From a virus: DNA of 35,008 nucleotides. Below, piece after piece: positions 917-27,313 of this stretch. Under the pieces are notes generated by a model. The model had not been told where the DNA came from. It did no database searches and was given only the letters and a program-made list of their open reading frames with translations. The stretch covers positions 1-35,008 of the IMG/VR virus record IMGVR_UViG_3300031812_000010. The stretch is one strand, 5' to 3'. The position numbers and the translations under genes are program-made. Positions within the stretch are counted from its first letter, which is position 1; every line of letters begins with the position of its first letter.

Positions 917-2311
917 TCACACGTAAACTCCTACGCCAAATTTGACCCCGTGCAAAGCCAAAGCGATCGCAGCTAAAGCGTCCGACAAGTGTCCACTCCC
1001 AAAAACGTTGTCCATCGTCGAAAACTTAAGCTCGTTGTAAAGATATCGAATCATCGGAAATCTGATTTTTCCGTTCTGTATCCAAACAATCGCACGGGAA
1101 AGCAACTCTGTCCTATCCCTGCCGACCATAATGAAAGGATTGGCAGAGGTTTCTAAGTAATCTTGTACCACATCCCCCAGACCCGTTCCATCATGAGTGG
1201 AGCGGAATGGCTTGTACATGCGGTTTACATAGTCCAACCTTTCTAGCATAAGCTTCCAAGGTTGTTGTTGTCGGCGCTCAAAGGTAACCAATCGAAAAGG
1301 ATCGCAATCGATCCGGATGGTTACGATAACCGTATAGTCTTCCTTGCGAGCCCAATCCGCTCCTGTTACATAGATCCCCTCTGGGGCTGTTGGCTCCACT
1401 TGGATAAACTGGTTTACATGACCTTCCCAAACCTGAGAGACATCGAAAATCTGCAGCAAAACCTCGTCCGAAAAAACCCGATTGCTAGGATTCGGCTCCT
1501 GCAGCTCATATTCCATGTTCCACATTTGCTCGGTTATCTCGTGCTTTTTGCGCTCGATTTCCTCTTCCTCCAGCCAGCCATCTATCGGATTGGACGATTC
1601 CTTATAGCACCATGTAAAAATTTTCCAATCCCTTTGCTTGGCTCTGCGCATGATCTCGCTCATTGTCCCATCCGCATACTGCCAAGTAGACGACAAAACC
1701 GTCTGCGATTTTATGCCTTTCTTGGAAAGTGTCTGACCAAGAGCGGCTTCTAATACGGAAAGATCCATCTCATCGATCTCGTCCATGCGCAACCTTTGGG
1801 GATGGGGTCCTCGCACACTGCGTTGGGAAGCCATAAGTGCCTGGATCGAATTGCCCATGACGAACCGAGTCTCCGTCTGGGATGGATCGGAAGCTAAAAG
1901 GTATCTCGGAGCAGAGGGTCTGGACAGAAACTGCTGGATATAACGATGCACACGTTTGGATTGCTCCCCAGAGCCTCCCAAAACAGCCACGTCCGCTCCC
2001 AGCAAAATGGACTCCGTCAATCCCAGCAAAGCCAGCAAAAAGCTCTTTCCACCAAATTCTCTGCTGGCATGCCACACTGCTATGCTGGAACGCGCAAAAA
2101 ACGCATGCGCGAACGCTTCCCACGGAGAACAGTGCTCTGGGCAGACTCTGGTTCGAGGAATGGTAACTCCCCACGCCAGTTGGACAAATTTATGCAGCGT
2201 TTCTTCGGTTTGGATTGGAAGAATGACCTTTACTGTATTGCTAGAATTTAGACTAAGATTCGACTTCTTTGCTTCCATTGTCAGAGAGGTCAAAACTCCC
2301 ATGGGATACAT
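917..2311 (-). CDS. terL: Terminase large subunit (TerL), ATPase and nuclease
   Basis: TerL is the DNA packaging motor that pumps DNA into the prohead and cuts the concatemer. Counting from the first ATG at 2311 (464 residues), an ATPase P-loop of terminase type, SREFGGKS, is at about residues 83-90, and a Walker B with catalytic acid, RMDEID, is at about 175-180. The C-terminal RNase H-like nuclease shows acidic residues in GADWA (about 319), THDGTG (about 374) and SDALA (about 444). The start is uncertain: ATGs at 2311, 2302 and 2278 are all in frame and none has a clear Shine-Dalgarno. The gene overlaps the preceding gene, so translation is probably coupled to it. A perfect 25-bp palindrome covers the first candidate start. 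Confidence 0.93.
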   Translation of the reverse strand: MYPMGVLTSLTMEAKKSNLSLNSSNTVKVILPIQTEETLHKFVQLAWGVTIPRTRVCPEHCSPWEAFAHAFFARSSIAVWHASREFGGKSFLLALLGLTESILLGADVAVLGGSGEQSKRVHRYIQQFLSRPSAPRYLLASDPSQTETRFVMGNSIQALMASQRSVRGPHPQRLRMDEIDEMDLSVLEAALGQTLSKKGIKSQTVLSSTWQYADGTMSEIMRRAKQRDWKIFTWCYKESSNPIDGWLEEEEIERKKHEITEQMWNMEYELQEPNPSNRVFSDEVLLQIFDVSQVWEGHVNQFIQVEPTAPEGIYVTGADWARKEDYTVIVTIRIDCDPFRLVTFERRQQQPWKLMLERLDYVNRMYKPFRSTHDGTGLGDVVQDYLETSANPFIMVGRDRTELLSRAIVWIQNGKIRFPMIRYLYNELKFSTMDNVFGSGHLSDALAAIALALHGVKFGVGVYV

Positions 2312-2612
2312 CTTGTAACAAGATGTATCGATTGCCTTGTGCGTCCACCAAATTATCGAAATAAGTTTTGCGAGTTAGCCATTCCTGCACAGTCTCGACC
2401 AAGCTGAGCCACTCTCTTGGATTTAGCTCCATCAGAATCGGCTCGCCTGGCATGGCAGGGTGCGGAGGGAAAACTGCCTTACCATGCACTAGCAGATCTG
2501 CGAGAATCTGCGCAATGACTTCTTTGCGCTTTTTGCGCTGGGATGGGGTTATGATGTAACCCTCCAGCTTGCGTTCCACCAGTGCTTGGACGGAGATCTT
2601 AGGTTTCCGCAT
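2253..2612 (-). CDS. Candidate terminase small subunit (position only)
   Basis: This 119-residue protein is the first gene of the late operon and overlaps the start of TerL, the place normally held by the small terminase. That subunit recognises the packaging site and loads TerL on DNA. I do not recognise a family signature. The N-terminal third is basic and probably helical (PSQRKKRKEVIAQILADLL), followed by a Pro-rich turn and the segment NPREWLSLVETVQEWL, then an acidic tail. The ATG at 2612 has no well-placed Shine-Dalgarno but lies 7 nt after a perfect TATAAT, so it may be read from a leaderless transcript. Function is inferred from context only; it could be another small head protein. 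Confidence 0.6.
   Translation of the reverse strand: MRKPKISVQALVERKLEGYIITPSQRKKRKEVIAQILADLLVHGKAVFPPHPAMPGEPILMELNPREWLSLVETVQEWLTRKTYFDNLVDAQGNRYILLQDVSHGSFDLSDNGSKEVES
2305..2329. repeat. Perfect 25-bp palindrome at the TerL start
   Basis: Two 12-bp arms, GATACATCTTGT at 2305-2316 and its exact reverse complement at 2318-2329, flank one central base. The element lies inside the candidate small terminase gene and covers the most upstream candidate ATG of TerL. In the minus-strand mRNA it would fold into an 11-bp stem with a 3-nt loop just before the alternative TerL starts at 2302 and 2278. It could be a translational control hairpin for TerL or a protein-binding palindrome such as a packaging site. 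The sequence alone does not decide between these. Confidence 0.75.
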
Positions 2613-2619
2613 GAAATTA

Positions 2620-2625
2620 ATTATA
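2620..2625 (-). promoter_or_regulatory. Perfect -10 box 7 nt before the first late gene (possible leaderless start)
   Basis: The minus strand reads TATAAT at 2625-2620, then 7 nt, then the ATG at 2612. With normal -10 to +1 spacing, transcription would begin at or next to the start codon. There is no good -35 at 17 bp upstream; a stable hairpin occupies that area. An AAGG just upstream of the box is too far from the ATG for an ordinary ribosome site. Confidence 0.45.
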
Positions 2626-2637
2626 CCTTAAGTCAGA

Positions 2638-2663
2638 GCAGCCGTCTCCGGAAAGACGACTGC
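2638..2663 (-). other. 10-bp stem-loop in the late-operon leader
   Basis: GCAGTCGTCT and AGACGGCTGC (minus strand) pair over 10 positions around a 6-nt loop. One pair is G-U in the minus-strand RNA but would be a C-A mismatch in a plus-strand RNA, so the fold suits a leftward transcript. No T-run follows in either direction, so it is not an intrinsic terminator. It may stabilise or regulate the leader of late mRNA started near 2707. Confidence 0.5.
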
Positions 2664-2713
2664 CCATTGATAGGGAGGGACAGGAGGGAGGAACGGAAAG
2701 GAATCCTGAGTGT

Positions 2714-2742
2714 ATTATAACGCATTTTTCTCTTACGGAAAA
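2714..2742 (-). promoter_or_regulatory. Putative late promoter (P3)
   Basis: The minus strand has TATAAT at 2719-2714 preceded by GAGAAAAATGCGT. This resembles the GAGAAAATCCGC stretch in front of the -10 box at 14312, and the TATAATACA core is shared. A usual -35 hexamer is not evident; the -35 position falls on a repeat TTACGGAAAA (plus strand), suggesting an activator or operator. Transcription from here would give a leader of roughly 95 nt for the whole structural operon. Confidence 0.5.
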
Positions 2743-2801
2743 GGTTTTCTGGATTTACGGAAAAACGACTTGGAAGTGGATTCGATCGATTTGTCGGAAA
2801 A
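2733..2801 (+). repeat. Direct repeats TTACGGAAAA upstream of the late promoter
   Basis: TTACGGAAAA occurs at 2733-2742 and 2755-2764, exactly 22 bp apart (two helical turns). A related TGTCGGAAAA lies at 2792-2801. The first copy overlaps the -35 position of the leftward promoter at 2719-2714. Regular spacing next to a promoter suggests operator sites. Confidence 0.5.
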
Positions 2802-2841
2802 TTTGCTGTGCAATTTTTTAATATTCGGTTTTTCGAATCAT

Positions 2842-3229
2842 CCATGGGGGTCTAAATTCATTAAAATTTCATTAAAACTCGACTACCATGGATCTTCGAT
2901 CCATGGTAGATCCATGGGGGATCCATGGGGGTTTAGAGCCAGATTCTATTTTTTCATTAATGAAAGCTTAAAGGCAGATAAGGAAATCATTAAAAACTAC
3001 CATGGCTACCATGGAAATCACACTTTAAAGAGTCATCGAACACATGTTTAAGCATATAATTACAATGCGGAGTATTTTTCCATGGTTTCCATGGTAGCCA
3101 TGGTAGCCATGGTAATTTTTTCGAACATTAGATCCACTTTCGAAATCCATGCATCCAGTCTTAAAAGTGTTTTAGTTAAGTCCAATCCCCATAATTATGT
3201 TTCAACACCATTTTCCATGGTATCCATGG
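2842..3229. repeat. Array of 13 CCATGG palindromes (non-coding)
   Basis: CCATGG begins at 2842, 2886, 2901, 2912, 2923, 3000, 3009, 3080, 3089, 3098, 3107, 3215 and 3224. Four copies at 3080-3112 repeat every 9 bp, pairs at 3000/3009 and 3215/3224 also have 9-bp spacing, and 2901/2912/2923 have 11-bp spacing. Flanks are often CTA before or TAG after, giving an extended palindrome CTACCATGGTAG. A larger inverted repeat with 12-bp arms spans 2883-2909. The region lies between the terminator of the small leftward operon and the late promoter, and I see no credible gene in it. Origin, packaging site and late operator are all possible. Confidence 0.85.
2859..2880 (+). repeat. Two 11-bp phased CATTAAAA repeats
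   Basis: CATTAAAATTT at 2859-2869 is followed directly by CATTAAAACTC at 2870-2880. Unit length and sequence match the GATTAAAATTT units at 4256-4288 apart from the first base. They may be a weaker version of the same binding element, about 140 bp upstream of the late promoter. Confidence 0.4.
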
Positions 3230-3234
3230 TAGTA

Positions 3235-3277
3235 GACTTCAAAAACAAAGAGACCCACGTTTTTTCCGTGGGTCTCT
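3235..3277 (-). terminator. Intrinsic terminator of the small leftward operon
   Basis: An 11-bp perfect stem (3249-3259 with 3267-3277, AGAGACCCACG and its complement) has a 7-nt loop. On the minus strand it is followed by TTTGTTTTTG. It lies just after the stop codon at 3294, so it ends transcription of the three genes starting at 4181. It also insulates the late promoter region from that operon. Confidence 0.9.
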
Positions 3278-3293
3278 GCAGGGGAAATGGAAT

Positions 3294-3470
3294 TTAATTT
3301 TCTACGCTGGTATCCTCATCTCCTTCAATTTCCACTTCGCAGATGAACAGATTATTGGAATCAGATAGGATTATCCTTCTTGGGTACATTTTCGGTAGCG
3401 GATGTGGGATCTCTTCCACCAGCTCCCATACTCCTGATTCATTCCGTCTCCAAAGGGTTACATTATTCAT
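3294..3470 (-). CDS. Small unknown protein, 58 aa
   Basis: The ATG at 3470 follows AAGGAGTCCTGAA, an excellent Shine-Dalgarno of the type used by the early genes of this phage, and the frame ends at TAA 3294-3296 just before a terminator. The product starts MNNVTLWRRNESGVWELVEE and has an acidic tail (EVEIEGDEDTSVEN). It sits 1 bp after the neighbouring gene's stop as third gene of the leftward operon. I recognise no family. It may be a host-interaction protein, as small acidic early phage proteins often are, but this is only inference. Confidence 0.75.
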   Translation of the reverse strand: MNNVTLWRRNESGVWELVEEIPHPLPKMYPRRIILSDSNNLFICEVEIEGDEDTSVEN

Positions 3471-3471
3471 T

Positions 3472-3726
3472 TCAGGACTCCTTTTCTACCCAGGTGAGTT
3501 GGTATTTCTTGAGAACAAATTCTAAAGCTTCTTCTTTGCTTTCGGGCTCTCCAGGAACCCCTCTACCCCAAGTGGTAGGGCAATTTGGATCCTGGTCCTC
3601 GAACTGGAAAACGTGCGCTCGCTTTATTCTATCATACATGTAAACGACTCGGGATTGCAGTCCATATTGGTTTTCTACTATGCCGAGGACTTGGGGCTCT
3701 GAGAATTGCTCAAATCTTTCTTTCAT
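3472..3726 (-). CDS. Small unknown protein, 84 aa
   Basis: Second gene of the short leftward operon, 14 bp after the zinc-ribbon gene and directly abutting the 58-aa gene. The ATG at 3726 is preceded by AGGAAGGAA, a moderate ribosome site. The product has an aromatic and charged middle (YMYDRIKRAHVFQFEDQDPN) and a C-terminal helix KEEALEFVLKKYQL. No signal peptide, membrane segment or known motif is visible. Probably soluble, function unknown. Confidence 0.7.
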   Translation of the reverse strand: MKERFEQFSEPQVLGIVENQYGLQSRVVYMYDRIKRAHVFQFEDQDPNCPTTWGRGVPGEPESKEEALEFVLKKYQLTWVEKES

Positions 3727-3740
3727 GGCTGGATTCCTTC

Positions 3741-4181
3741 CTATTTGATTTTAGACAGCAGTGCTTGTGTTAGAGGATCTGTGCGAACTTTCACGTCGTT
3801 TATACCAAGAGTCTGCAAAAACTCTAAAATTTTGATCAACTCCTCCCGATCTTCTGGGATTCGGATTCCCCAAGCTTTCTTGGGAGTCGTCCCCAGAGCA
3901 TCTGTGTAATACTCCATCCACTTGAAACCGTGCTGCTTCAGGGTTTCCTTGATAGAATAGGTGTCACCCTTGCTGATAACGATCCAAGCCCCTCCAGAGA
4001 ACATGTTATTTACGACTTCCGCCTCATAGGGCTCTTCTTTCTTAAGATTCCGATAGCACTCGGGGCAGACCATGTTGGTCTCATACCATCGGATTTTTCG
4101 ATCGCGCTCTTTGCTGGGTCCAAAGAGTTCTACGGTGTGCTCCCCGTGTCCGCAACTGTATTTTACTGTGTACTTAGCCAT
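3741..4181 (-). CDS. Zinc-ribbon protein of unknown function, 146 aa
   Basis: First gene of the short leftward operon, with AAAGGAG upstream of the ATG at 4181 and a strong promoter 30-40 bp further up. The N-terminal 45 residues show a split zinc-binding motif, CGH at 10-12 and CPEC at 39-42. This resembles small zinc-ribbon proteins common on phages and plasmids (motif CGH..., VELFG, R, then CPEC). The rest (about residues 55-146) looks like a small alpha/beta domain with ISKGDTYSIKETLKQHGFKW and a helical C-terminus. Early expression suggests a host-takeover or regulatory role, but there is no direct evidence of function. Confidence 0.8.
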   Translation of the reverse strand: MAKYTVKYSCGHGEHTVELFGPSKERDRKIRWYETNMVCPECYRNLKKEEPYEAEVVNNMFSGGAWIVISKGDTYSIKETLKQHGFKWMEYYTDALGTTPKKAWGIRIPEDREELIKILEFLQTLGINDVKVRTDPLTQALLSKIK

Positions 4182-4219
4182 TTTCTAGACTCCTTTCCGT
4201 TTTTGTATTTTATGCTTAT

Positions 4220-4255
4220 ATTATAGCGGATTTTTGCAAAAATACCTTAAAATAA
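4220..4255 (-). promoter_or_regulatory. Leftward early promoter P1
   Basis: The minus strand carries TATAAT at 4225-4220 preceded by AAAAATCCGC. Transcription would start near 4213, about 30 nt before the ATG at 4181. Some 70 bp of this region is nearly identical to the promoter in front of 14349: TTATTTTAAG, TATTTTTG, AAAATCCGCTATAAT in the same order. There is no clear -35 hexamer; phased GATTAA repeats lie 30 bp upstream of the -10. Confidence 0.8.
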
Positions 4256-4288
4256 GATTAAAATTTGATTAATGTTTGATTAAAATTT
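4256..4288 (+). repeat. Three tandem 11-bp GATTAAAATTT repeats
   Basis: GATTAAAATTT (4256-4266), GATTAATGTTT (4267-4277) and GATTAAAATTT (4278-4288) follow each other without gaps. One unit per helical turn places all copies on the same DNA face. They stand immediately upstream of the leftward promoter P1, and the same phasing is found upstream of the promoter at 14312. The likely role is binding of a phage or host transcription activator; an origin iteron role is an alternative. Confidence 0.75.
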
Positions 4289-4325
4289 CGAAATTTAGAA
4301 ACTCTAACCAAATGGATTAAAAATC

Positions 4326-4369
4326 TTTAATCTTTTTCCAGTCAAAAGTCCAAGAAATGTATTTAAAAT
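4326..4369 (+). promoter_or_regulatory. Rightward early promoter P4 for the replication operon (putative)
   Basis: TTTAATC ends at 4332 and a -10-like TAAAAT lies at 4364-4369, exactly 31 nt later. This is the same arrangement as the TTAATC element and TATAAT of the promoter at 14312. Transcription would start near 4376, shortly before the AAAGGAG ribosome site at 4390-4396. The -10 is imperfect, so confidence is moderate. With P1 it forms a divergent promoter pair. Confidence 0.5.
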
Positions 4370-4410
4370 ATCCCCACAAGTCTGAACGGAAAGGAGTTTA
4401 GTTTACCAAG

Positions 4411-5604
4411 TTGCGCAAGATACTTTGGATCCCACCAGGCAACGGAAAGACGAGAATTGCGATAAACCTTATGCAAAAATGCAATGCGGAAAACTTACTT
4501 GTCGTGGCTCCACTGTCTCTGCACGAGTGGTGGAGGAGGGAGTTGAATAAGCAATTTTCCGCTCCTTATCGGATAACTTCTTACGACAAAGACCCCGACT
4601 GGGAAGAGACTTTTTCCGCAATTATTTTCGATGAATCCATCCTGTTGAAAAATCGAAAAACAAAGAGATTCCAACGCTGGAAAACTTACGTCCAGCGCAC
4701 TAAACCGCAACATATACTGTTGCTGACGGGCAACCCGATTGGCAAATATGCGGACGACTTATGGACGCAATTGCACTTGCTGGATCCTAAGAGGTTTTCC
4801 TCTTATTGGCGCTGGACGGAAGAGCACTGCTACGTGCAGCGCTATTGGGGTTGGGAAGTGGTAGGTAACCGCTCATCTTTGGATAAGGTTGTGCATTCTG
4901 CTTATCCGTACATTTTGTACGACGAGAATCCACACAATGTGCAAATTCCAGATTTTCTTTTCCACAGCATAAACGTTGGACTTTCTTCCGTTACCTTAGA
5001 TTTCATTTCCAAATTGTATCGGGATTTATATTTAGCAGAGTCTCCCATAGCGAACAAACTTACTTTGCTGTTGCGGACGATGCAAATTGTAAGCGATCCG
5101 TTTGTTTTGGATCTAGCTTTGCCACGGGATCGTTATAGGGCATTGCTAAATGTTTTGGAAACTGTGGAAAAACCCGTTTTGGTTTTCACGTCCTTCAAGC
5201 ACAACCTTTACCATCGGACTGTGGACGTGCGGAAAAAGTTTAGAACCGAGTATCTAACAGGGGAAACCAAACCTTTCGAACGACAAACCATAATGGATCG
5301 TATCAACGATAGAGATTTGGAAGTGGTTTTTCTCACCCCTGGGGTGGGAAGGTTTGGATTTAATGCGCCTGATTGCTCTTTAGTGTTTTGGGATTTACCG
5401 ATTGCTTACGATTATTTTTACCAAGCGATCCACCGAGTCAGGCGTCTCACTTCGACCAAAAGGTCTGAAGTTTTCTTGCTCCACAGCGAAGTGAAAAGCG
5501 ATAAAGTACTTTTGGATTTGCTCTTGCGCAAATCGAAATATACTTTGCACTCTGTATTGAAACAAATTCTGCTAGAAAAGGAGGTTCAAAATGTTCCCGA
5601 ATGA
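4411..5604 (+). CDS. SNF2-type (superfamily 2) DNA helicase/ATPase
   Basis: A 397-residue ATPase with Walker A PPGNGKT at 8-14, motif Ia VVAPLSL at 31-37, a DEAH-type box as DESI at 74-77, motif III LLTGNPI at 104-110, and a C-terminal helicase lobe ending in the motif VI-like QAIHRVRR. Phage SNF2-like helicases act in replication start, fork remodelling or recombination. It opens the replication operon. The start is odd: no ATG or GTG is available, and the only candidate is TTG at 4411, 14 nt after AAGGAG, with a TAG in frame at 4399. The protein therefore begins almost directly at Walker A and lacks the usual upstream Q-motif helix. An unusual start codon or a small sequence error is possible. 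Confidence 0.85.
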   Translation: MRKILWIPPGNGKTRIAINLMQKCNAENLLVVAPLSLHEWWRRELNKQFSAPYRITSYDKDPDWEETFSAIIFDESILLKNRKTKRFQRWKTYVQRTKPQHILLLTGNPIGKYADDLWTQLHLLDPKRFSSYWRWTEEHCYVQRYWGWEVVGNRSSLDKVVHSAYPYILYDENPHNVQIPDFLFHSINVGLSSVTLDFISKLYRDLYLAESPIANKLTLLLRTMQIVSDPFVLDLALPRDRYRALLNVLETVEKPVLVFTSFKHNLYHRTVDVRKKFRTEYLTGETKPFERQTIMDRINDRDLEVVFLTPGVGRFGFNAPDCSLVFWDLPIAYDYFYQAIHRVRRLTSTKRSEVFLLHSEVKSDKVLLDLLLRKSKYTLHSVLKQILLEKEVQNVPE

Positions 5605-5854
5605 AGTCTTGTCCAGGAAAATAACCGAATTGGAAGATTTGATAATCCAGTGGAAAAAGTTTTCCGATCATGTTCCTAAAGGTGTCCGATGGGCAGCGCA
5701 GCACTTGCTGGAAGAGTACGACTCCAGAGAGTTGCCCGTCTGGGTAAAGGTTATTTGCCACACACCAGATTCGGACTGGGACGATACTCTGCAGCAAATT
5801 TACTACGAGATCCAGTCTGACAGAGCTTATCGGGAAAGCTTGCGAGACTTATGA
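5591..5854 (+). CDS. Small unknown protein, 87 aa
   Basis: The ATG at 5591 follows AAAAGGAGG and overlaps the helicase end by 14 bp; its own end overlaps the nuclease start by 4 bp (ATGA). This tight coupling supports a real gene in the replication operon. The product is mixed helical and acidic, with ITELEDLIIQWKKF near the N-terminus and a DSDWDDTLQQIYYEI segment. No motif is recognised. It could be a partner of the helicase or nuclease beside it. Confidence 0.8.
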   Translation: MFPNEVLSRKITELEDLIIQWKKFSDHVPKGVRWAAQHLLEEYDSRELPVWVKVICHTPDSDWDDTLQQIYYEIQSDRAYRESLRDL

Positions 5855-6555
5855 CGTTTACCATTAACCCAAGCAAACTCTCTGCCTTTATCCGATGCAA
5901 ACTAAAGTATGCTTTTGGACGTTGGGAAATCCCCGCTCCACCCGTGGAAAGCATAACTTTAGGCTCTGCGGTGCATACCTTGCTCCAAGAATATTACGAG
6001 AAAGGCATTTGGAATTTGGACGCCATAAAAGACACAGAATTTGACCTGAGCTGGTTCATTAGTCAATATGTGAGTAAAGCCAATATCGGTAAGGTTATTT
6101 CCGTGGAGCGAAAGCTGGAATATCCCCTATCCGAGGATCTGACTCTAAATGGAAGGATCGATCTAACGATAAAGGATATGGCGGATAAAATCTGGGTAGT
6201 GGATCACAAAACTACCCGAAAATCTCCCGTCGCGATAACGTATGCTATGTCTCTGCAGGGGATTTTCTACGTGTGGCTTTCTAGACAGTTGGGAGAGAGT
6301 GTGGATGGCGCGATGTATAACGTTTTGGTTTTGGACACCGCACGGAAAAAGCTGGAAGTCCAAAGGTACTGGCTATTGTATAGCCAAGAGCAATTAGATG
6401 CTTTCCAAGCAGAGCTGATGGAATGGATCAAGGAGGTGCTGGAAGTAGAGCAAAAATATATTTTACCCAAACAATTACCCCGTCGAACGGCTTTGTACAC
6501 ATGCCATGAGGAGTGCCCATGGCTGGAATATTGTAACAAAATCTATCCGTGGTAA
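5851..6555 (+). CDS. Cas4/RecB-like PD-(D/E)XK nuclease with Fe-S cluster cysteines
   Basis: A 234-residue nuclease of the Cas4/AddB/RecB group that would process DNA ends for recombination or replication. Visible motifs are GSAVHTLL with His42, VERKLE, GRIDL with Asp104, VVDHKTT with Asp118 and Lys120, and Gln136 in QGIFY. Four cysteines frame the fold, Cys16 near the N-terminus and Cys218, Cys222 and Cys228 near the end. This is the split 1+3 layout that holds a 4Fe-4S cluster in Cas4 and AddB, although the spacing here is CX3CX5C. It is encoded between the helicase and the RecA-fold ATPase. There is no CRISPR array, so a Cas4 adaptation role is not indicated. Confidence 0.88.
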   Translation: MTFTINPSKLSAFIRCKLKYAFGRWEIPAPPVESITLGSAVHTLLQEYYEKGIWNLDAIKDTEFDLSWFISQYVSKANIGKVISVERKLEYPLSEDLTLNGRIDLTIKDMADKIWVVDHKTTRKSPVAITYAMSLQGIFYVWLSRQLGESVDGAMYNVLVLDTARKKLEVQRYWLLYSQEQLDAFQAELMEWIKEVLEVEQKYILPKQLPRRTALYTCHEECPWLEYCNKIYPW

Positions 6556-6569
6556 CAGAAAGGAGTCGT

Positions 6570-7274
6570 ATGGCTATAAATATCCAGAAGTTTGACCGTA
6601 AAACGTACTTACAGAAAATAAAATTCCTAATCTATGGAGAGTCGGGTGTGGGTAAAACGACTTTCGCGAGCACGTTTCCAGATCCGTTGTTTTTGGACAC
6701 TGAGCATGGTTTGGCTTCTTTGCAGATGACTGTGGATTACATCACCGTCGACAATCCAAAAATAATGGAGGAAGCCATAGAGTTTGCCAAGCACACCGAC
6801 AAGTACCAAACGATCGTGGTGGACAGTGTGACCCGATTGCAAAGTGTGCTGATGGAAAACATCCTCGAAGACTACCCCGACATTAAAAGACCTTACGACA
6901 GTTTGCCGACTATGAACGATTACAACAAGTTGATACGGGATTTTACCCAATACATTTATGACCTGATAGCTTTGGACAAACTGGTCGTGCTTATCGGAGT
7001 AAACACTGCCAAGTCCTTCGAGGAGGACGTTATCCAACCTGCCTTCACAGGTCGCATGACCAGTAAGCTGATCTGTGCCGCAGTGGATATGGTCGGTTAT
7101 ATGTTCAAAGTCCTCCACGAAGGCGAAACCAAACACGTTTTGTCTTTTGATATGCCGAACTTTGTGACTAAGTGCAGGATTGCCCATAACCTTCCTCGTC
7201 TTATCCAAAATCCAACGTATCAAAAAATCTTATCTTACATGGAGGTGCAAAATGGAAATCAGTCTGGAGCGTAG
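6570..7274 (+). CDS. Sak4-like RecA-fold ATPase (phage single-strand annealing / recombination protein)
   Basis: A 234-residue P-loop ATPase of the AAA_24/Sak4 group. Walker A GESGVGKT is at 23-30, FLDTEHG at about 41-47 and Walker B TIVVDSVT around Asp85. Sak4 proteins are reduced RecA relatives that promote strand annealing together with a cognate ssDNA-binding protein, which fits the next gene. I chose ATG 6570 because AAAGGAGTCGT precedes it; a GTG at 6549 would add seven residues before that ribosome site. The end overlaps the next gene by 23 bp. Confidence 0.88.
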   Translation: MAINIQKFDRKTYLQKIKFLIYGESGVGKTTFASTFPDPLFLDTEHGLASLQMTVDYITVDNPKIMEEAIEFAKHTDKYQTIVVDSVTRLQSVLMENILEDYPDIKRPYDSLPTMNDYNKLIRDFTQYIYDLIALDKLVVLIGVNTAKSFEEDVIQPAFTGRMTSKLICAAVDMVGYMFKVLHEGETKHVLSFDMPNFVTKCRIAHNLPRLIQNPTYQKILSYMEVQNGNQSGA

Positions 7275-7764
7275 CGCAAACGTTTTGGAACCTGGCAAAT
7301 ATACCGTTTACCCTATTCGAATCTCCCCTGGAGAGGGCAATTCAGGGTATCCGTATATCCAGGTCGTTTGGATGGAATTACAAAGCCAGCAGCTCATCTG
7401 GGATTACTTGTCGCTTTCTCCGAAGGCACGCTGGAAATTGGATGCGATTCTAGATTTGATCGGTGCTCCGACCTCAGGGAAGGTTTCCCTAGAGCAGTTG
7501 GAGTCGACCTTAAAGAAATTCTCTTTCCAGGTGTCCGTAATCCAGGAGAAATACGAATCCCGCTGGCAAAACAAAGTGAAAGGATATCTGACAGTGTCCC
7601 TGCTGAACGAAGAGGAAATCCAGCAATTGGAGGAAGTTTCCAAACCGATCTTGGAACGTCTGTCTAAAGCTTCCGAAGATATCGACATCGTGGAGCCGAT
7701 GCAGGACGTTCTAATTCCTCCCAAGCAGGGTGTTTTCGAGGATTTACTCAAAGAGTTGCAATGA
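7252..7764 (+). CDS. DUF669-like single-strand DNA-binding protein (probable)
   Basis: A 170-residue acidic protein starting at ATG 7252 after GGAGGTGCAAA. The N-terminal part (LEPGKYTVYPIRI, then YPYIQVVWMELQSQQLIWDYLSL) matches the beta-rich OB-like pattern of DUF669 proteins, which regularly sit next to Sak4/AAA_24 genes in phages and act as ssDNA-binding partners. The C-terminus is strongly acidic (SEDIDIVEPMQDV, then FEDLLKELQ), as in SSB tails that recruit other proteins. Family assignment is by pattern and neighbourhood, so it is moderate. Confidence 0.65.
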   Translation: MEISLERSANVLEPGKYTVYPIRISPGEGNSGYPYIQVVWMELQSQQLIWDYLSLSPKARWKLDAILDLIGAPTSGKVSLEQLESTLKKFSFQVSVIQEKYESRWQNKVKGYLTVSLLNEEEIQQLEEVSKPILERLSKASEDIDIVEPMQDVLIPPKQGVFEDLLKELQ

Positions 7765-8168
7765 AGCTGGTAGTCTTAGATCTTGGGATAAACACAGGTA
7801 TAGCTTGGCTACGGAAGGACGACAAAGTGGTTTATTACAGGACTGCTTGCGTCCCTTTGCAAGAATCCACTAAAGTCGTCCTTCCAGACCCAGAGGTTTT
7901 ATATGTGATCGAAGATTTCCCTGTTTGGAAATCTGTAAAATACGTAAAAATTTGGCTGAAAGAACTTTTGGAAAACTTCGGAGTAAATACCCTATGGGTC
8001 AGACCTGACGTTTGGATGCATTCTATGCGCAGGTACACAGAGCACTTGCCCAAACCCGGAACCCCACACGAACGAGATGCTTTGTGGCTTGGGTTGTACA
8101 CTTTAGAGCAGCAATGCAAAGAGAAAAAAGGAGTGCTACAGTGGGATATAAGAGTCTCGCAATTTTAG
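7761..8168 (+). CDS. RuvC-like Holliday junction resolvase
   Basis: A 135-residue RNase H-fold nuclease. The first strand VVLDLGINTGIAW carries Asp7, the second acidic site is Glu51 in YVIEDFP, and the last motif HERDALWLG contains His103 and Asp106 in the RuvC order. It would resolve branched DNA before packaging. It is shorter than E. coli RuvC (173 aa) but normal for phage versions. It overlaps the preceding gene by 4 bp and runs 28 bp into the flavoprotein gene. Confidence 0.82.
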   Translation: MKLVVLDLGINTGIAWLRKDDKVVYYRTACVPLQESTKVVLPDPEVLYVIEDFPVWKSVKYVKIWLKELLENFGVNTLWVRPDVWMHSMRRYTEHLPKPGTPHERDALWLGLYTLEQQCKEKKGVLQWDIRVSQF

Positions 8169-8944
8169 GATCTGGAGCTTCTTCTGCGGTGGTGGCTTAT
8201 GTTTTCCGACAGATTTTTCCGCAAATAGACATTGACATCTGGACGATGCGGAGAGAAGTCGTGGTTTACCCGTTTACCAGCATCGAAAGCGAATACTTCG
8301 AAAGAAAATTTCCTCTGTTGCCGAGAATACTCTGGAAAATACATTGGACGGTATCTCCCGAAGACTACAAAAAGAATCGCTGGGGAGATTTGCACCATCT
8401 GGTTGGAGATTCCAATTTGTCTAAGGAGTATCCAACAGGTCAAAGGTACTATTTAGAACCCCAAATTCTGTGCAACTGGCTGATAGGGATATCTGACGTG
8501 CACTGGAAACTCTTAGCCAGTCCATTTACCCAAGAAGAAATCCAAAGTCTGACGGAGAAATACACATGGGTTGTGCAAACCTTTCCAAATCCAAAACATG
8601 CACAACCAGTCTGTTGGGAATGGATCGTCGCATTTCCTAATGGAAATTGCCCAGAAGAGAAAACTTTGTGCTTAACCCACGGAGGAAATCCACCAGAAAC
8701 TCGATGTTGGGAATACGGAAAGATTAGATTCCAGGAATATCGTATCCACTACGAACCACCGATTTTCCCTGATGAACTTTATCGAATAAAGTTTAAAATC
8801 CTGCACCCTAGCACAAAACCAATTTCTCCCGTGGATGAGGTGTTTCCGAACCTTATTTACATTGGCAGATATGCTTTGTGGGATTTTTCTTTTTCCATTG
8901 AATCTATACCAGATTTGCTTTACAAAATATTAAATACTGATTAA
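8141..8944 (+). CDS. Rossmann-fold flavoprotein, possible FAD-dependent oxidoreductase
   Basis: The GTG at 8141 follows AAAAGGAG and gives 267 residues; the open frame extends further upstream only inside the RuvC-like gene. The N-terminus SLAILGSGASSAVVAYVF is a beta-alpha-beta dinucleotide-binding start (GxGxxS), followed by a second strand IDIDIW. The C-terminal segment NLIYIGRYALWDFSFSIESI resembles the second FAD-contact region of glutathione-reductase-type or UDP-galactopyranose-mutase-like flavoenzymes. The middle is not recognised. It is followed by a DUF1599/Nmad1 protein and ThyX, so a role in a modified pyrimidine pathway is a reasonable inference but not shown. No membrane segment or signal is seen. 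Confidence 0.6.
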   Translation: MGYKSLAILGSGASSAVVAYVFRQIFPQIDIDIWTMRREVVVYPFTSIESEYFERKFPLLPRILWKIHWTVSPEDYKKNRWGDLHHLVGDSNLSKEYPTGQRYYLEPQILCNWLIGISDVHWKLLASPFTQEEIQSLTEKYTWVVQTFPNPKHAQPVCWEWIVAFPNGNCPEEKTLCLTHGGNPPETRCWEYGKIRFQEYRIHYEPPIFPDELYRIKFKILHPSTKPISPVDEVFPNLIYIGRYALWDFSFSIESIPDLLYKILNTD

Positions 8945-8954
8945 GGAGGTTGCT

Positions 8955-9266
8955 ATGGACGAAACGAAAGAATTACAAATGTTCGATTCTTACTGTGCGC
9001 AAGGAAGAGAAATCTTCGTGCGCAAAAACAAAGAGTACGGTGGATCTTACCACTGGATGGGTTTAATTGGAGTGGTAAGTGAGATCGCTGGAATTTCCAT
9101 GCGGTTGGTGAGTGCAGTTTTCCAGAATTTTGGTAACATCGAACCCAATCGAGACTCTGTAAAAGACGCTTTGCTGGATCTGCACAATTATGCCAGCATG
9201 GGTCTAATTTGTCTGGAAAACGACAACATCCTAGGAGAATTTTTGCAAGGAGCTAAAAAACGATGA
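8955..9266 (+). CDS. DUF1599 / nucleotide modification associated domain 1 (Nmad1) protein
   Basis: A 103-residue protein, starting after AAGGAGGTTGCT. The pattern REIFVRKNKEYGGSYHWMG followed by the later DALLDLHNYASMGLICLE matches DUF1599, renamed Nmad1 because its genes travel with DNA base hypermodification genes in phages. The biochemical activity of the family is not settled. It lies between a flavoprotein and ThyX, with a 4-bp overlap with ThyX, so the three are co-translated. It may help sense, trap or act on modified nucleotides. Confidence 0.75.
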   Translation: MDETKELQMFDSYCAQGREIFVRKNKEYGGSYHWMGLIGVVSEIAGISMRLVSAVFQNFGNIEPNRDSVKDALLDLHNYASMGLICLENDNILGEFLQGAKKR

Positions 9267-10066
9267 AGCCGAAAATTTTAGTCCACCAAGAACCTTATCG
9301 AGATAAAATCCTGCGATGGTTCACAGGAGTTACGGCAGAAGTGCATCTGATTAGCATGACGCCCAATCCCAAAAAGCTTATCGCCCTCGGAATGCGCGCC
9401 TACACTGGACATTACGAGACAGACATTCCAGAAGACTTGGTAGAACCGTTCTTCCGAGATTCCAGGACAGCTTTGGCGACACCTTTGGAGTGGGTGAATT
9501 TTGTTTTCCTCCTTAAAGACGTCCCAAGGTTTTTCACCCATCAGCTTGTGCGGAACAGGATTGGAGTGTCGTTTGTGCAGCAATCAACTCGCAACAAAAC
9601 GGAGCAGCTTTACTTCGATTTCCTTTTGCCACCGTCTTATGTTCGAGCAGGATATAGCTTGGAGAAAAACTTGGATTTAAACCAGCTAATACAAGCCAAT
9701 CTTGCAGCCGCTAGAGTGATTATCGACGCTTACCATACAGAGCACTTGTCTGCCGAGGATGCTAGATTCGTTTTGCCGCACAATTTTCTAACTCACATTT
9801 ACTGGCAGACGAACTTGGTCGCTCTTAATAGAGTGTTCGATAAACGTTTCTGTTGCCAGGCGGAAAAAACGGTATGGCTCCCTGTCCTGTTACAAATCAT
9901 GCGATTATTGCAATCGAATTGTCCAGGTTTAGAACAGGTTTTGTCTTCTCCGTTTTTGCGAGGTGAAAGTTGTGGTTATACCGCGAGTTTCGACAAACCC
10001 TGCACCTGGAAAGGAAAGACTCGGGAGGAGATCCTGAATGAATCGATATCTGATTCTGGATCTTGA
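9263..10066 (+). CDS. thyX: Flavin-dependent thymidylate synthase ThyX, divergent
   Basis: ThyX makes dTMP from dUMP with methylene-tetrahydrofolate, FAD and NADPH. The 267-residue product has the ThyX signature region HQLVRNRIGVSFVQQSTR, a form of RHRX7-8S in which the central His is Asn. The earlier conserved LEH segment reads LEWVNFVF, again losing a His. The later R.VLP...T pattern is kept (DARFVLPHNFLT), as is KRFCCQAE, matching the dUMP-site Arg region. Two changes at flavin or substrate positions suggest an altered enzyme, perhaps for another pyrimidine product. The overlap with the polymerase gene (29 bp) and with the Nmad1 gene (4 bp) indicates joint expression. Confidence 0.85.
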   Translation: MKPKILVHQEPYRDKILRWFTGVTAEVHLISMTPNPKKLIALGMRAYTGHYETDIPEDLVEPFFRDSRTALATPLEWVNFVFLLKDVPRFFTHQLVRNRIGVSFVQQSTRNKTEQLYFDFLLPPSYVRAGYSLEKNLDLNQLIQANLAAARVIIDAYHTEHLSAEDARFVLPHNFLTHIYWQTNLVALNRVFDKRFCCQAEKTVWLPVLLQIMRLLQSNCPGLEQVLSSPFLRGESCGYTASFDKPCTWKGKTREEILNESISDSGS

Positions 10067-11843
10067 AACGACTGGGTTGGATTGGTGGAGAGAAAAAATT
10101 GTAGGAATAGGTATAAGGTTGGAGCCAGAGGGTAGGGAAGAGTTTTTTCCTTACCCTGATCCAAGCAGACTTAGGGAATACTTGTTGAAGTACAGAGATC
10201 GGGTATGGATCGGACACAACATTAAGTTCGACTTACTCTTTATCCATTACCCTCCAGAGATTGTTTACTCTCTGCAAATAAGAGACACAATGGACATGGT
10301 GCACTTGTACGATTCGAGGCTTTCTAAATCTTTGGTAGAAGTGGAGAAAGAGTTTCTCGGATCGGAAACAAAATTCTGGCACCTACATCAGGAAAACAAG
10401 CGGAAAATAAAATCTTGGGACTTGGATAAAGTAAAAGAATATTGTCTGAACGACGTGCTGATAACTTGGAACGTGTTCAGAAAATTAGAACCAGAATTGG
10501 AAAAACTGGAAGTTTATCATATTTTCCGCAAAAATATGGAATTGCTCAAGGTGTTATATGAAATCGAATACTTTGGATTTCTTTTCGACAAAGAGGAAGC
10601 GGATCGCAGTGTCAAAATTTTGGAAGAGAATCTAAAATTACAAGAGGAACAGTTTTTCCAGAAGGTTGGTGTAAGGTTCAACTGGCGTAGCCATAAGCAG
10701 TTGAGTTATTACGCTTATGATTATCTGGGTTTTCCACGACCTGAGAACCCTTTTTTGGATCCGATTACAGGGGAGGACTTGGGTCGAAATCCAGAATCGC
10801 GCAAATATAACAGCACGATGGTATCCAGTTCTATATTAGTGGGTAAAGCAAAACACCCATGGGCTTTGGACATCCAGTTCTTGCGGGAAACGGACAAGGC
10901 AATAGATTTTATCCAGCGTCTTAGCAGTTTGACTGACGACAAAAACTTTCTGCATTCTTCTTTTAACATTAGTGGAACTAGAACAGGTCGAATAAGTTCC
11001 AGCAGACCGAACTTGCAAAACATCATGAGTGGGATGCGAGGGTTTTTTTTGTCTTCCTCTTTCCTGGATGCAGAAGCCGTGGAAGCTATCCTGAACCGCA
11101 GCCAAGCTTACAATGTGCGCAGACTTTTCATCGCCCGTCCAGGATACCAAATTGTGAGCATCGATTACAAGCAAATGGAAATGCGCATGTTTGGAATTGT
11201 TTCCAAAGATCCCCACATGCTGGAATTTTTGCAAGCAGGCACAGACATCCACAGCCAAATCGCGCAAAGGGTCTGGGGTAAAGCTGACGAGATAACCCGC
11301 GATTGGGCTAAGCAGATCGGATTTGGTTTGATTTATGGCATGACGATGGGGTCGTTGCGCTTTCGGCTAAACCTTACTCTGGAGGAGGCTAAAAAAATCA
11401 CTTCCGATTACTGGAACACTTTTCCAACCATTCGACCCTGGCTTTTCGGAGTGGTGGAAGAGTGTAAAAAGAAAGGTTATTTGCGATACTGGTCAGGTAG
11501 AATTTGGAGAGAGGACAAAGTAGAAAAAATGTATCGTGGAGCCAATGCACTGATCCAGGGAGGCTGTGCAGATCTGCTTTCCGTCGCAGTGCTACGGGTA
11601 AACAATTACATCAAGCGCAACAATCTGGATATTCGCATGGTAAATCTAGTGCACGACGAGATAGTTTTCGAAATGCGGGAAGAAGATTTCGAACACATTC
11701 CAAAAATCGCTAACATCATGCAAGTAGAGGACTTGTTTGGAATACCTTTCATCGTGGACGTGAAAATCGGCAGATCTCATGGAGAATTGGAGTCGTATGG
11801 AAAATCTGATACAGGAACTGGAAAACAGATTTTTTCACAATAG
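10038..11843 (+). CDS. polA: Family A DNA polymerase with 3'-5' exonuclease
   Basis: A 601-residue replicative polymerase without a 5' nuclease domain. Exo I is LDLETTG (Asp8, Glu10), Exo II HNIKFD (Asp65) and Exo III YCLNDV (Tyr135, Asp139), so proofreading looks intact. Polymerase motif A is SIDYKQMEMR (Asp376), motif B runs from Arg421 to Tyr433 with Lys425 and Phe429, and motif C is VHDE (539-541). The Phe in the helix O position is the E. coli-type residue that discriminates against dideoxynucleotides. About 30 residues (330-360) separate LQNI from RRLFIARPG, longer than usual here. The ATG follows GGGAGGAGATCCTGA. Confidence 0.95.
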   Translation: MNRYLILDLETTGLDWWREKIVGIGIRLEPEGREEFFPYPDPSRLREYLLKYRDRVWIGHNIKFDLLFIHYPPEIVYSLQIRDTMDMVHLYDSRLSKSLVEVEKEFLGSETKFWHLHQENKRKIKSWDLDKVKEYCLNDVLITWNVFRKLEPELEKLEVYHIFRKNMELLKVLYEIEYFGFLFDKEEADRSVKILEENLKLQEEQFFQKVGVRFNWRSHKQLSYYAYDYLGFPRPENPFLDPITGEDLGRNPESRKYNSTMVSSSILVGKAKHPWALDIQFLRETDKAIDFIQRLSSLTDDKNFLHSSFNISGTRTGRISSSRPNLQNIMSGMRGFFLSSSFLDAEAVEAILNRSQAYNVRRLFIARPGYQIVSIDYKQMEMRMFGIVSKDPHMLEFLQAGTDIHSQIAQRVWGKADEITRDWAKQIGFGLIYGMTMGSLRFRLNLTLEEAKKITSDYWNTFPTIRPWLFGVVEECKKKGYLRYWSGRIWREDKVEKMYRGANALIQGGCADLLSVAVLRVNNYIKRNNLDIRMVNLVHDEIVFEMREEDFEHIPKIANIMQVEDLFGIPFIVDVKIGRSHGELESYGKSDTGTGKQIFSQ

Positions 11844-14256: not shown

Positions 14257-14317
14257 TCGAACACTAATCAAATTTTAATCTTATTTTAAGATATTTTTGG
14301 AGAAAATCCGCTATAAT
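14248..14317 (+). promoter_or_regulatory. Rightward promoter P2 with phased TAATC sites
   Basis: TATAAT at 14312-14317 lies about 30 nt before the AAAGGAGTC ribosome site of the gene at 14349. TAATC occurs at 14254-14258, 14265-14269 and 14276-14280, exactly 11 bp apart; the first overlaps the primase stop. The last copy ends 31 nt before the -10. The region is almost the same as the leftward promoter P1 read on the opposite strand. No -35 hexamer is evident, so activator-dependent transcription is likely. Confidence 0.8.
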
Positions 14318-14348
14318 ACAAACATAAATTCACAAGAAAGGAGTCCCA

Positions 14349-14795
14349 ATGAATATGAACCAAGTAACTTTATGGCGATTAACCAACACGATCAAATCTC
14401 TTTCCGATTCTACCTTTATACGGGTAAGAGTCCCATTCGGACCCGTGGTCGAGGTGAACGGTCGCAACGGAAATCGTCCTGTCTGGAGGGTAGGGAGCAT
14501 GTCCATACCCGATAAATTAGACACATTTTTCCTTGCGGATAACGGAAGGTACTCATTGATTTTCAGCCCGTATTATTATTTGAATTTGGATCCATCGGAA
14601 GGACAAATCGACACAGGTTTGGAACTTGTGGAGGGGATTTTGCCTGCAAGCACAGTTGTGCCGATTTTCCGCAAGGTAAGGGAAGCTTTTTTACTTTTTA
14701 GCGACCAGACTTTGTTAGACAAGTTTCTACCCACGGAGACTGTCCGCATTTATACAATAAGACCTTATAAATCTATATTACCAGATTTTCTGTAG
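14349..14795 (+). CDS. Unknown protein, 148 aa
   Basis: First gene after promoter P2. The ATG at 14349 follows AAAGGAGTCCCA; a second Met at codon 3 is possible. The product is predicted soluble and beta-rich, with TFIRVRVPFGPVVEV, SLIFSPYYYLNLD and a C-terminal RIYTIRPYKSILPDFL. No known motif, signal peptide or membrane segment. It belongs to an accessory block expressed apart from replication genes. Confidence 0.8.
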   Translation: MNMNQVTLWRLTNTIKSLSDSTFIRVRVPFGPVVEVNGRNGNRPVWRVGSMSIPDKLDTFFLADNGRYSLIFSPYYYLNLDPSEGQIDTGLELVEGILPASTVVPIFRKVREAFLLFSDQTLLDKFLPTETVRIYTIRPYKSILPDFL

Positions 14796-14806
14796 GAGGC
14801 ATACCT

Positions 14807-15076
14807 ATGAACCCGAAAAAAGTAATTGTAACAGCAGGATCAGAATACGGAGAATTTGTTTGTGAATTCGCAATCGAAGACGGAATCCTCTGCCTTACCC
14901 GTATGGACGGGGATGGCAATCTGGCAGGGAACTCTTTGATTCTGGAATTCGAGCAAGAGCATGTGGATAACATCTACGACTTGCGGAAAAAACTAATAAA
15001 CGAAGTCCGCCACAGGGCAGAACGTTGTGGTTGCCATCGTTGCCAATACGATGTCCGCATCGAATTTTTGGAGTGA
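14807..15076 (+). CDS. Small acidic unknown protein, 89 aa
   Basis: The ATG at 14807 follows GTAGGAGGCATACCT, 11 bp after the previous stop. The product starts MNPKKVIVTAGSEYGEFVCEF and carries acidic stretches (RMDGDGN, LEFEQEHVDNIYDL). A CGCHRC motif near the C-terminus could bind metal together with the other Cys, but no full zinc motif is clear. Function unknown. Confidence 0.78.
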   Translation: MNPKKVIVTAGSEYGEFVCEFAIEDGILCLTRMDGDGNLAGNSLILEFEQEHVDNIYDLRKKLINEVRHRAERCGCHRCQYDVRIEFLE

Positions 15077-15100
15077 TTGTCTATTGGAAAGGAGTCTAAA

Positions 15101-15511
15101 ATGGAAACCATATTATTCTCGATTGAGAAAACTCGTTCAGGTCGACCAGCGATCTGGGTTGGAGGGGGAGCAACAAGCAACCGTTTCGCAGCCCAATTCG
15201 TTCTGCGGGACAAGAAACTTGCTCCTGCGTGCTTTATCAAAACCAGTGGGCACCGTTGCAATAGCAACCAAGCCCTCGTCCCCATTCGAGAGGGGGACGT
15301 AATCGTAGGGATTCAAGGGACTCGCCCAGCGAGTCTTGAGAACCCTTGCATTGGAGTTCACGGCTGGAAGGTCGTCGAGTTCCAAACCAATGACAATGAA
15401 CTTCTAGCAGTTTGCCATAAGGTAGATATTAGCAAAGATGACGTCCCTCCATCAGTGTGGCATGGCTGTGGAGTTTATCACAACAGGGATGGGAGGTATT
15501 TCGTTTCTTAA
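15101..15511 (+). CDS. Unknown protein, 136 aa
   Basis: The ATG at 15101 follows GAAAGGAGTCTAAA; the open frame begins at 15077 but the ribosome site decides the start. The product has a Gly-rich N-terminus (SGRPAIWVGGGATSNRF), a central CIGVHGWKVVEFQ and HGCGVYHNRDGRYFVS at the end. Third gene of the P2 unit, followed by a terminator. No family recognised. Confidence 0.78.
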   Translation: METILFSIEKTRSGRPAIWVGGGATSNRFAAQFVLRDKKLAPACFIKTSGHRCNSNQALVPIREGDVIVGIQGTRPASLENPCIGVHGWKVVEFQTNDNELLAVCHKVDISKDDVPPSVWHGCGVYHNRDGRYFVS

Positions 15512-15563
15512 TAAGTAAATTACCTCCCATCCCCACTCCCATTGCCGTTCTATGGCACAGGGT

Positions 15564-15603
15564 CCGGGACTATCTCTGAAGATAGTCTCGGCATTTTTGT
15601 TTA
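15564..15603 (+). terminator. Intrinsic terminator
   Basis: A 12-bp stem (15564-15575 with 15580-15591, one G-U pair) closes a CTGA tetraloop and is followed by CATTTTTGTTTA. It ends the unit 14349-15511 or attenuates transcription into the next four genes, for which I see no separate strong promoter. Confidence 0.88.
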
Positions 15604-15620
15604 TGGGCAATTCATGCCCA
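15604..15620 (+). other. Short inverted repeat after the terminator
   Basis: TGGGCA and TGCCCA form a 6-bp stem with a 5-nt loop directly after the T-run of the terminator. It may mark the 5' side of mRNA reading into 15655 or be a minor regulatory hairpin. Too short to assign more. Confidence 0.3.
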
Positions 15621-15654
15621 CCCGTTGACAAAGGACGAGAAAGGAGAATGAAAA

Positions 15655-16080: not shown

Positions 16081-16130
16081 ACAAAAAGAGGTAGTCTTTG
16101 CCCAAAGAGACTCCCTAGGAGGAGAACAGG

Positions 16131-16376: not shown

Positions 16377-16385
16377 GAGGAACCC

Positions 16386-16592: not shown

Positions 16593-16606
16593 GAAAGGAG
16601 TCCAAC

Positions 16607-27311: not shown

Positions 27312-27313
27312 AC

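Follow-up and report, generated by a model that had tools for sequence, protein, structure and literature searches.

The intergenic gap and its CCATGG sites

The DNA analysed here, called the window throughout, is the 35,008-base virus record IMGVR_UViG_3300031812_000010, and all coordinates without a further label refer to it. The two termini of the window have 138 bases in common with one mismatch. On account of these near-identical ends the map was taken as circular with about 34.87 kb; the ends speak for a circular map only. The genes are arranged in two blocks. The plus-strand block (4411-17527) encodes an SNF2-type helicase, a PD-(D/E)XK nuclease, a Sak4-like protein, ThyX, a family-A polymerase and an AEP primase-helicase. 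The minus-strand block runs from 17564 round to 4181 and contains the large terminase subunit (TerL) and probably the portal and capsid genes, names given by us and for the capsid backed by a search. No known RNA or tRNA was detected in the window at gathering thresholds, and no related DNA was found in annotated phage and plasmid collections. A profile search of genome contigs with the TerL alignment for assigning a host yielded no more than a match of 45% in a Nanopelagicales MAG, which is too distant for naming a host. In the window, 68 copies of TCGAAA (both strands) and 25 copies of TTCGAA were counted; a cluster lies at 11666-12038. The features of the locus and the genes of importance for its interpretation are:

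917-2311, minus strand: TerL (PHROG 2)
2253-2612, minus strand: 119-aa ORF in small-terminase position; no Pfam, PHROGs or NCBIfam match, structure model with a pLDDT of 58
2620-2719, minus strand: putative promoters in front of the terminase block, two TATAAT boxes at 2620-2625 and 2714-2719
2842-3229, no strand: 13 CCATGG palindromes, arrayed as five groups of 1, 4, 2, 4 and 2 sites
2859-2877, plus strand: two CATTAAAA AT-rich boxes 11 bp apart, with a third at 2988-2995
2883-2909, no strand: perfect inverted repeat with 12-bp arms (2883-2894/2898-2909) and 3-nt loop, built of two sites
2997-3106, no strand: two site groups forming a dyad, its 24-nt inverted arms at 2997-3020 and 3083-3106 being 96% complementary and enclosing a core of 62 nt
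3249-3277, minus strand: terminator-like hairpin with T tail, past small minus-strand genes and ahead of the array
4411-5604, plus strand: SNF2-type helicase, with which the plus-strand block opens; in three cousins it abuts the gap directly
10038-11843, plus strand: family-A DNA polymerase with 3'-5' exonuclease
11779-14256, plus strand: primase-helicase with AEP primase domain, P-loop ATPase and a C-terminus resembling a winged helix, judged solely by predicted secondary structure; candidate for reading the array

The gap at 2613-3296 comprises 684 bp and is the largest of the window, followed by one of 229 bp in a hand-picked ORF map. An earlier note, made from the sequence alone, had described it as the only large non-coding region and had placed the repeats upstream of the terminase genes. 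Both statements agree with the map: The array is separated by 230 bp from the downstream 119-aa ORF, which its position alone marks as a small terminase, and TerL follows. The CCATGG sites start at positions 2842, 2886, 2901, 2912, 2923, 3000, 3009, 3080, 3089, 3098, 3107, 3215 and 3224, corresponding to distances of 44, 15, 11, 11, 77, 9, 71, 9, 9, 9, 108 and 9 bp. Three groups are stepped at 9 bp and one at 15/11/11, and local copying of 9-bp units is apparent at 3080-3112. All 13 sites which the earlier note had counted in about 390 bp were located, as were its 9-bp steps (including 3080-3112 and the pairs), the 11/11 run and the inverted repeat with 12-bp arms. Its statement that many sites extend to CTACCATGGTAG had to be corrected. 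This exact 12-mer does not occur, and only the one-sided forms CTACCATGG (three copies) and CCATGGTAG (four copies) were found. In seven cases the palindrome is preceded by CTA or followed by TAG, three sites (2842, 2912, 2923) continue with GGG, and three have other flanks.

Chance and base composition were excluded as sources of the array by shuffling, Markov simulation and random placement. The whole window holds 20 CCATGG sites, compared to 7.56 in 100 dinucleotide shuffles (standard deviation 2.65, largest value 16). The shuffles correspond to a chance rate of about one site per 4.6 kb; the earlier note had expected one per about 4 kb. When 20 sites were placed at random in 10,000 trials, at most 6 fell into 388 bp versus the 13 observed. 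Among all palindromic hexamers of the window, CCATGG forms the top cluster within 450 bp (13 copies), with TTCGAA as runner-up (4 copies), and in 30 Markov simulations no such cluster exceeded 4. A coding repeat was also rejected for the window: The frame 2633-2845, which covers part of the region, is hit by a 3-base and a 1-base indel in the relatives L022 and L023.

The array spacers are 69-74% AT. None of the ten least stable 100-bp stretches of the window lies in them, and one of the ten least stable 60-bp stretches falls into the array (2940-2999, the tenth). Boxes similar to the CATTAAAA boxes, again with 11-bp spacing, also occur in the cousin L025 (record G004), within its gap. The boxes of the array also resemble the 11-bp-phased GATTAAAA boxes of promoter-like elements near 4256 and 14273. 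This promoter-like element was seen by eye in two copies, at 4209-4283 on the minus and at 14251-14330 on the plus strand, each with several TTAAT boxes in 11-bp phase and one TATAAT box; similar DNA occurs in L024, L025 and L026.

The terminator proposed in the earlier note was confirmed as a terminator-like hairpin with T tail (3277-3249). The late promoter proposed along with it rests on the two TATAAT boxes, neither of which was reported by a two-hexamer promoter scan. On the minus strand, the box at 2620-2625 stands just 7 bases ahead of the start codon (ATG) of the 119-aa ORF, which would make a message from there leaderless. We considered it rather unlikely that the array serves the control of the late (terminase) operon, with a phage regulator on the CCATGG sites switching the minus-strand promoters at 2714-2719 and 2620-2625. 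Such control would agree with the position of the boxes between array and terminase genes, with the likeness of the CATTAAAA boxes to the promoter-like elements and with the hairpin, which would shield the array from upstream transcription. Moreover, the distant TerL cousin L028 carries operator-like paired palindromic repeats upstream of its terminase genes. However, the sites extend over 390 bp, and the closer box lies about 120 bp downstream of the first of them, which is unusual for an operator. The promoter scan missed both boxes, and no regulator was recognised among the 23 of about 46 window proteins scanned.

Conservation in close relatives and other repeat words in cousins

Two further contigs carry the identical array, L022 (IMG/VR 3300031513_000020) and L023 (IMG/VR 3300031950_000004, record G002). 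Over aligned bases the identity to the window is 92.7% for L022 and 92.5% for G002, and in both contigs 13 of 13 CCATGG sites are kept with unchanged spacing. An assembly error, which the earlier note had held against its own observation, is unlikely because the array recurs in these two contigs, which differ from the window elsewhere; an assembly artefact was therefore rejected. In a three-way alignment of window, L022 and L023, 0 of 78 CCATGG columns were variable, compared to 164 of 1696 columns in the stretch of 119-aa ORF and TerL. The array spacers varied at 16 of 310 columns without gaps. In the remainder of the gap, 13 of 122 columns were variable at 2720-2841, 10 of 107 (plus 1 gap column) at 2613-2719 and 19 of 67 (plus 3 gap columns) at 3230-3296. 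Taken alone, the contrast between sites and spacers is modest. We are aware that recent recombination could add to the conservation of the array, since further 400-bp stretches are 100% identical between genome pairs. The array is real and under constraint, and a protein most likely reads it.

The cousins L024 (record G003), L025 (record G004, 16.6 kb) and L026 (record G005) have much of their gene order in common with the window. Their protein identity to the window is 74-76% for TerL, 34-37% for the protein in small-terminase position, 41-42% for SNF2 and 44-48% for the primase-helicase, the latter from G005 and G003. The equivalent gap is flanked by the SNF2 gene on one side and the divergently oriented terminase genes on the other; here the two blocks of genes diverge. 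No CCATGG cluster was found at this locus in any of the three; other repeats take its place. L024 contains a CCCCGATGAAAT-type inverted repeat with perfect 14-nt arms and L025 a CCCCAATGGATT-type one with perfect 12-nt arms, in both cases with 157 nt between the arms. L026 has 35-nt inverted arms, 86% complementary, around a 77-nt core. Conservation in related phages, on which the earlier note had made its inference depend, was consequently found for the array itself in L022 and L023 and not for the CCATGG word in L024 to L026.

The DNA of L024 and L025 is 86% identical over 2691-9348, and their proteins are 96% (SNF2) and 98% (small-terminase position) identical. Within the gap, 60-column blocks between columns 61 and 480 drop to 30-70% identity; the SNF2 edge reaches 0.82, and blocks starting at column 601 or later reach 0.95-0.98. 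The arms differ at 3 of 12 positions, and each change is mirrored in the opposite arm (pairing by eye). In a ranking by repeat score, the gap came first among 692 windows of the window genome and first among 323 in G004. In G003 only 2 of 689 windows exceeded it, both overlapping the gap, while in G005 it was unremarkable (39 of 717 higher). Of 200 gap shuffles, 0 reached the observed score for the window, 0 for G003, 1 for G004 and 1 for G005.

L024 and L025 also show a structured leader directly after a TATAAT box upstream of the gene in small-terminase position (L024:5373-5535, L025:5364-5522). It has 38 predicted pairs, 5 of them with compensatory changes between the two sequences, and is followed by a 23-codon mini-ORF that is alike in both by eye. 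The leader had no Rfam or tRNA match, and none was seen at the equivalent place of the window.

Given the conserved sites and spacing and the repeats at the equivalent place in the cousins, a dedicated protein-binding array is well supported by sequence comparison. The earlier note had offered a packaging start, a replication origin or a late-gene operator for it. The part on a binding array stood; the three options cannot be separated with certainty, and we ranked the origin first.

CCATGG clusters, terminase loci and replication genes elsewhere

The exact pattern CCATGG-N3-CCATGG-N3-CCATGG was found in 18 stretches of IMG/VR viral contigs, 2 of them window relatives, and the 15-mer CCATGGTAGCCATGG in 57 stretches of viral contigs. 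Among the collected loci, 19 contain at least 4 CCATGG per 400 bp. Seven belong to the window's group and 12 do not, the latter corresponding to 11 distinct loci as L008 and L020 are near-identical. The clusters of L005, L009 and L011 were set aside, since long frames cover them. L006, L007 and L150 did not emerge as window relatives, and their clusters are apparently non-coding. In L006 the cluster lies between a VapE helicase and the small terminase gene. In L007 it follows a gene for a DUF3854 protein with weak DUF927 similarity and precedes a ParB-domain gene, so that it could be a partition site; no terminase was recognised in the part read. L150 has 7 CCATGG, mostly TAG/CTA-flanked, which follow closely on a primase-type gene (DUF5906). 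A TerL lies 3.3 kb past this cluster, and an unmatched 125-aa frame is in between. The cluster of L008/L020 is located immediately upstream of the small and large terminase genes, that of L010 beside an SNF2 gene; further clusters occur in L013, L016 and L136 (four sites). These neighbourhoods agree with an origin as well as with packaging.

The extended unit GGTAGCCATGGCTACC was dismissed as a general family: It occurs in 13 stretches, and the 12 besides L150 have at most 3 CCATGG nearby. A dense array of the exact unit was seen only in the window's phage group and more loosely in L150; other CCATGGTAGCCATGG matches came without such a cluster. The earlier note knew of no phage array with this unit, which holds for annotated phage and plasmid DNA and has to be qualified by the seven sites of L150. 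A literature search on phage palindrome arrays at origins or packaging sites brought up no such array by title or abstract start. We regard it as improbable that the array is a partition-like or host-protein binding site or a functionless mobile or low-complexity repeat. The restriction of the exact dense unit to one phage group (apart from looser L150 and the four sites of L136) and the local copying of 9-bp units would fit. Against it, the conservation of the array exceeds that of the neighbouring genes, symmetric repeats stand at the equivalent place in the cousins, and no partition gene was recognised among the scanned window proteins (23 of about 46).

Ten more distant TerL loci (L027, L028, L030, L032, L034, L036, L038 and L255-L257) were inspected, and a general trait of the TerL family was rejected: Only L028 has its top repeat score within 3 kb before TerL. 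This score of 35 at 4426 stems from paired palindromic repeats of other words. The L028 gap upstream of the terminase genes (L028:4473-4614) shows two pairs of 23-bp-spaced repeats of operator-like appearance, one pair with a perfect inverted repeat of 16-nt arms (TGACAAATGTCATGTC). L027, L030 and L032 have no CCATGG cluster, small gaps and unremarkable repeat scores there, and by eye their proteins in small-terminase position are of the HTH type.

A packaging start (pac or cos) is possible, with a probability well short of even. The 119-aa protein, as small terminase, would wrap or bridge the CCATGG sites, TerL would cut nearby, and headful packaging would begin. Consistent with this, the array or the repeats of its cousins stand directly upstream of the gene in small-terminase position and TerL in the window and in L022 to L026. 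CCATGG clusters also precede the small terminase gene in L006 and L008/L020 and TerL by about 3.3 kb in L150. Among the loci examined, such a gap accompanies the 119-aa-type protein and is missing in L027, L030, L032 and at the G014 junction. In SPP1, pac overlaps late promoters and the start of gene 1, according to the passages on it (PMC6316719). On the other hand, the proteins in small-terminase position of L024 and L025 are 98% identical though the arms differ at 3 of 12 positions. In L007 the neighbour of the cluster is a primase-type gene, and the part of this contig that was read showed no recognisable terminase. Thirteen symmetric palindromes together with AT-rich boxes would appear more origin-like.

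The genome G014 (L207) holds relatives of nine window proteins, including SNF2 (26%), Sak4 (35%), PolA (40%), the primase-helicase (35%) and ThyX (26%); the others are three plus-block proteins, among them a DUF932 protein, and the peptidase-like protein of 17564-18202. The TerL, portal and capsid of the window found no match in G014 at an E-value of 0.001, and G014 has its own TerL and, by eye, a small-terminase-like frame. No array was found at its SNF2/terminase junction. An array that is part of the replication module alone was therefore rejected, and G014 counts against a simple rule of the array travelling with the replication genes. The top palindrome cluster of G014 consists of nine TGCGCA at 28532-28853, in a repeat-rich stretch remote from both modules. 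It lies nearer to the GC-skew maximum (24186) than to the minimum (11583). The surrounding 5 kb (L259, G014 about 24000-29000) have no clear genes and are full of GCACCCGC-type repeats and TGCGCA palindromes.

The minimum of the detrended cumulative GC skew was found at 2123 in the window (0.5 kb from the gap), at 28669 in G003 (gap from 28820; 0.15 kb), at 3841 in G005 (gap 1573-1980; 1.9 kb) and at 18692 in G002 (array from 19413; 0.7 kb). G002 is without end repeat, and circularity was assumed for its skew. The skew position is weak evidence, since gene direction switches near the same place.

A candidate replication origin and its putative reader

Taking the evidence together, we tentatively read the array as a protein-read replication origin with dyad sites, to which we give a chance approaching but not reaching an even one. 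The CCATGG site groups, dyad-symmetric around AT-rich cores, would bind an initiator in several copies. The bound initiator would melt the AT-rich DNA between the site groups and load the replicative helicase, and two forks would depart, one toward the early block on the plus strand and one toward the late block on the minus strand. As initiator, the AEP primase-helicase of the phage would be the likeliest protein, perhaps acting via its C-terminal winged-helix-like domain. From the sites, their conservation, place and symmetry we infer the binding of a protein, its identity and a replication start here.

Several observations led to this preference. The array occupies the only large gap in the ORF map, between the terminator-like hairpin and the terminase block, and its CCATGG columns are invariant in contrast to the 119-aa-ORF and TerL stretch. 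The gaps of the cousins hold inverted repeats of other motifs with matched arm changes in L024 and L025, and the gap tops or nearly tops the repeat score in the window, G004 and G003. AT boxes at 11-bp spacing recur in window and G004. The two blocks diverge at the gap in L024, L025 and L026, and the GC-skew minimum lies near the gap or array in the window, G002, G003 and G005. Furthermore, the phage encodes a polymerase, a primase-helicase, a Sak4-like protein and an SNF2 helicase, and the clusters of L006 (VapE), L007 (DUF3854, weak DUF927) and L150 (DUF5906) adjoin primase/helicase genes. Finally, hot-spring PolA viruses have a repeat-bearing intergenic gap of 750-1,350 bp at the divergence of their blocks, which the authors likewise regard as a bidirectional origin in the passages on it (PMC7689252).

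Other observations count against an origin. G014 is without array at the junction, and its TGCGCA cluster lies nearer to the skew maximum. The array is located 8.5 kb from the primase-helicase gene and adjoins the terminase genes. Gene direction confounds the GC skew, no spacer ranks among the ten least stable 100-bp stretches, and 9 bp is not one helical turn. The repeat score of the G005 gap is unremarkable, and the conservation could stem partly from recent recombination.

With respect to the reader, the AEP domain of the primase-helicase is close to CRISPR-associated Prim-Pol (Foldseek E-value 4.4e-9, sequence E-value 7e-27; Z-score 20.0 and 2.8 A over 196 residues at 28% identity). The model is weak overall (pLDDT 54), and only the N-terminal primase domain is distinct among solved folds. 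For the C-terminal stretch, three helices and two strands were predicted in a block with pLDDT 54-85, suggestive of a winged helix; no solved-fold match was listed for this part, and a PDB sequence search gave no notable match. Conservation between window and L125 is lowest at residues 746-815 (19% versus 38-59% elsewhere); between window and L124 this part is not clearly the lowest (40% versus 42-64%). This divergence is at most a hint. In phage P4, the alpha protein combines primase, helicase and a C-terminal DNA-binding domain that reads repeated sites at ori and crr; the P4 motif and primase type differ from those of the window. A further-reaching version of the origin reading appears doubtful to us: a dyad origin whose site word was swapped between sister phages (CCATGG, CCCCRATGR or GGAAGTTT-type) while place and layout were kept, read by the C-terminal domain of a self-loading primase-helicase of the TOTE type.

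The reading of a repeat-bearing gap as an origin has already been published for the hot-spring PolA viruses, and the window array would be a variant of that kind, judged by the relevant passages of PMC7689252. Thermocrinis Octopus Spring virus and its relatives have in common with the window a PolA phage background, a gap at the block divergence, repeats and a possible GC-skew switch, which in the window is confounded with gene direction. Their repeats are predicted to form stem-loops, and their origin is equally deduced. They differ by the longer gap of 750-1,350 bp, compared to 684 bp with CCATGG units, by repeats left unspecified in these passages, and by a polyprotein that unites a DUF927-type primase/helicase region with PolA, whereas the window has a separate PolA and AEP primase-helicase (passages of PMC7689252). 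SPP1 oriL and oriR likewise combine repeats with AT-rich DNA, and the SPP1 repeats are bound by a phage protein. In contrast to the palindromic units of the window, they consist of direct repeats; gp38 serves SPP1 as an origin-binding protein of its own, next to a helicase of the DnaB type (passages of PMC6316719). SPP1 pac lies at the small-terminase promoter region, comparable to the array next to the putative small-terminase gene, and is composed of pacL, pacC and pacR; the passages on it contain no 13-fold palindrome array (PMC6316719).

Whichever reading applies, the array is a clear, testable cis element. As a packaging site, it would represent an unusual multi-palindrome signal adjoining a gene in small-terminase position without a recognised DNA-binding fold. 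As an origin, it would offer an exact 400-bp replication target for an uncultured phage group with an uncharacterised AEP primase/helicase, along with sister phages in which the site words differ and the layout is kept. If the site word was indeed swapped, these phages would form a natural series for an initiator and an origin changing specificity together.
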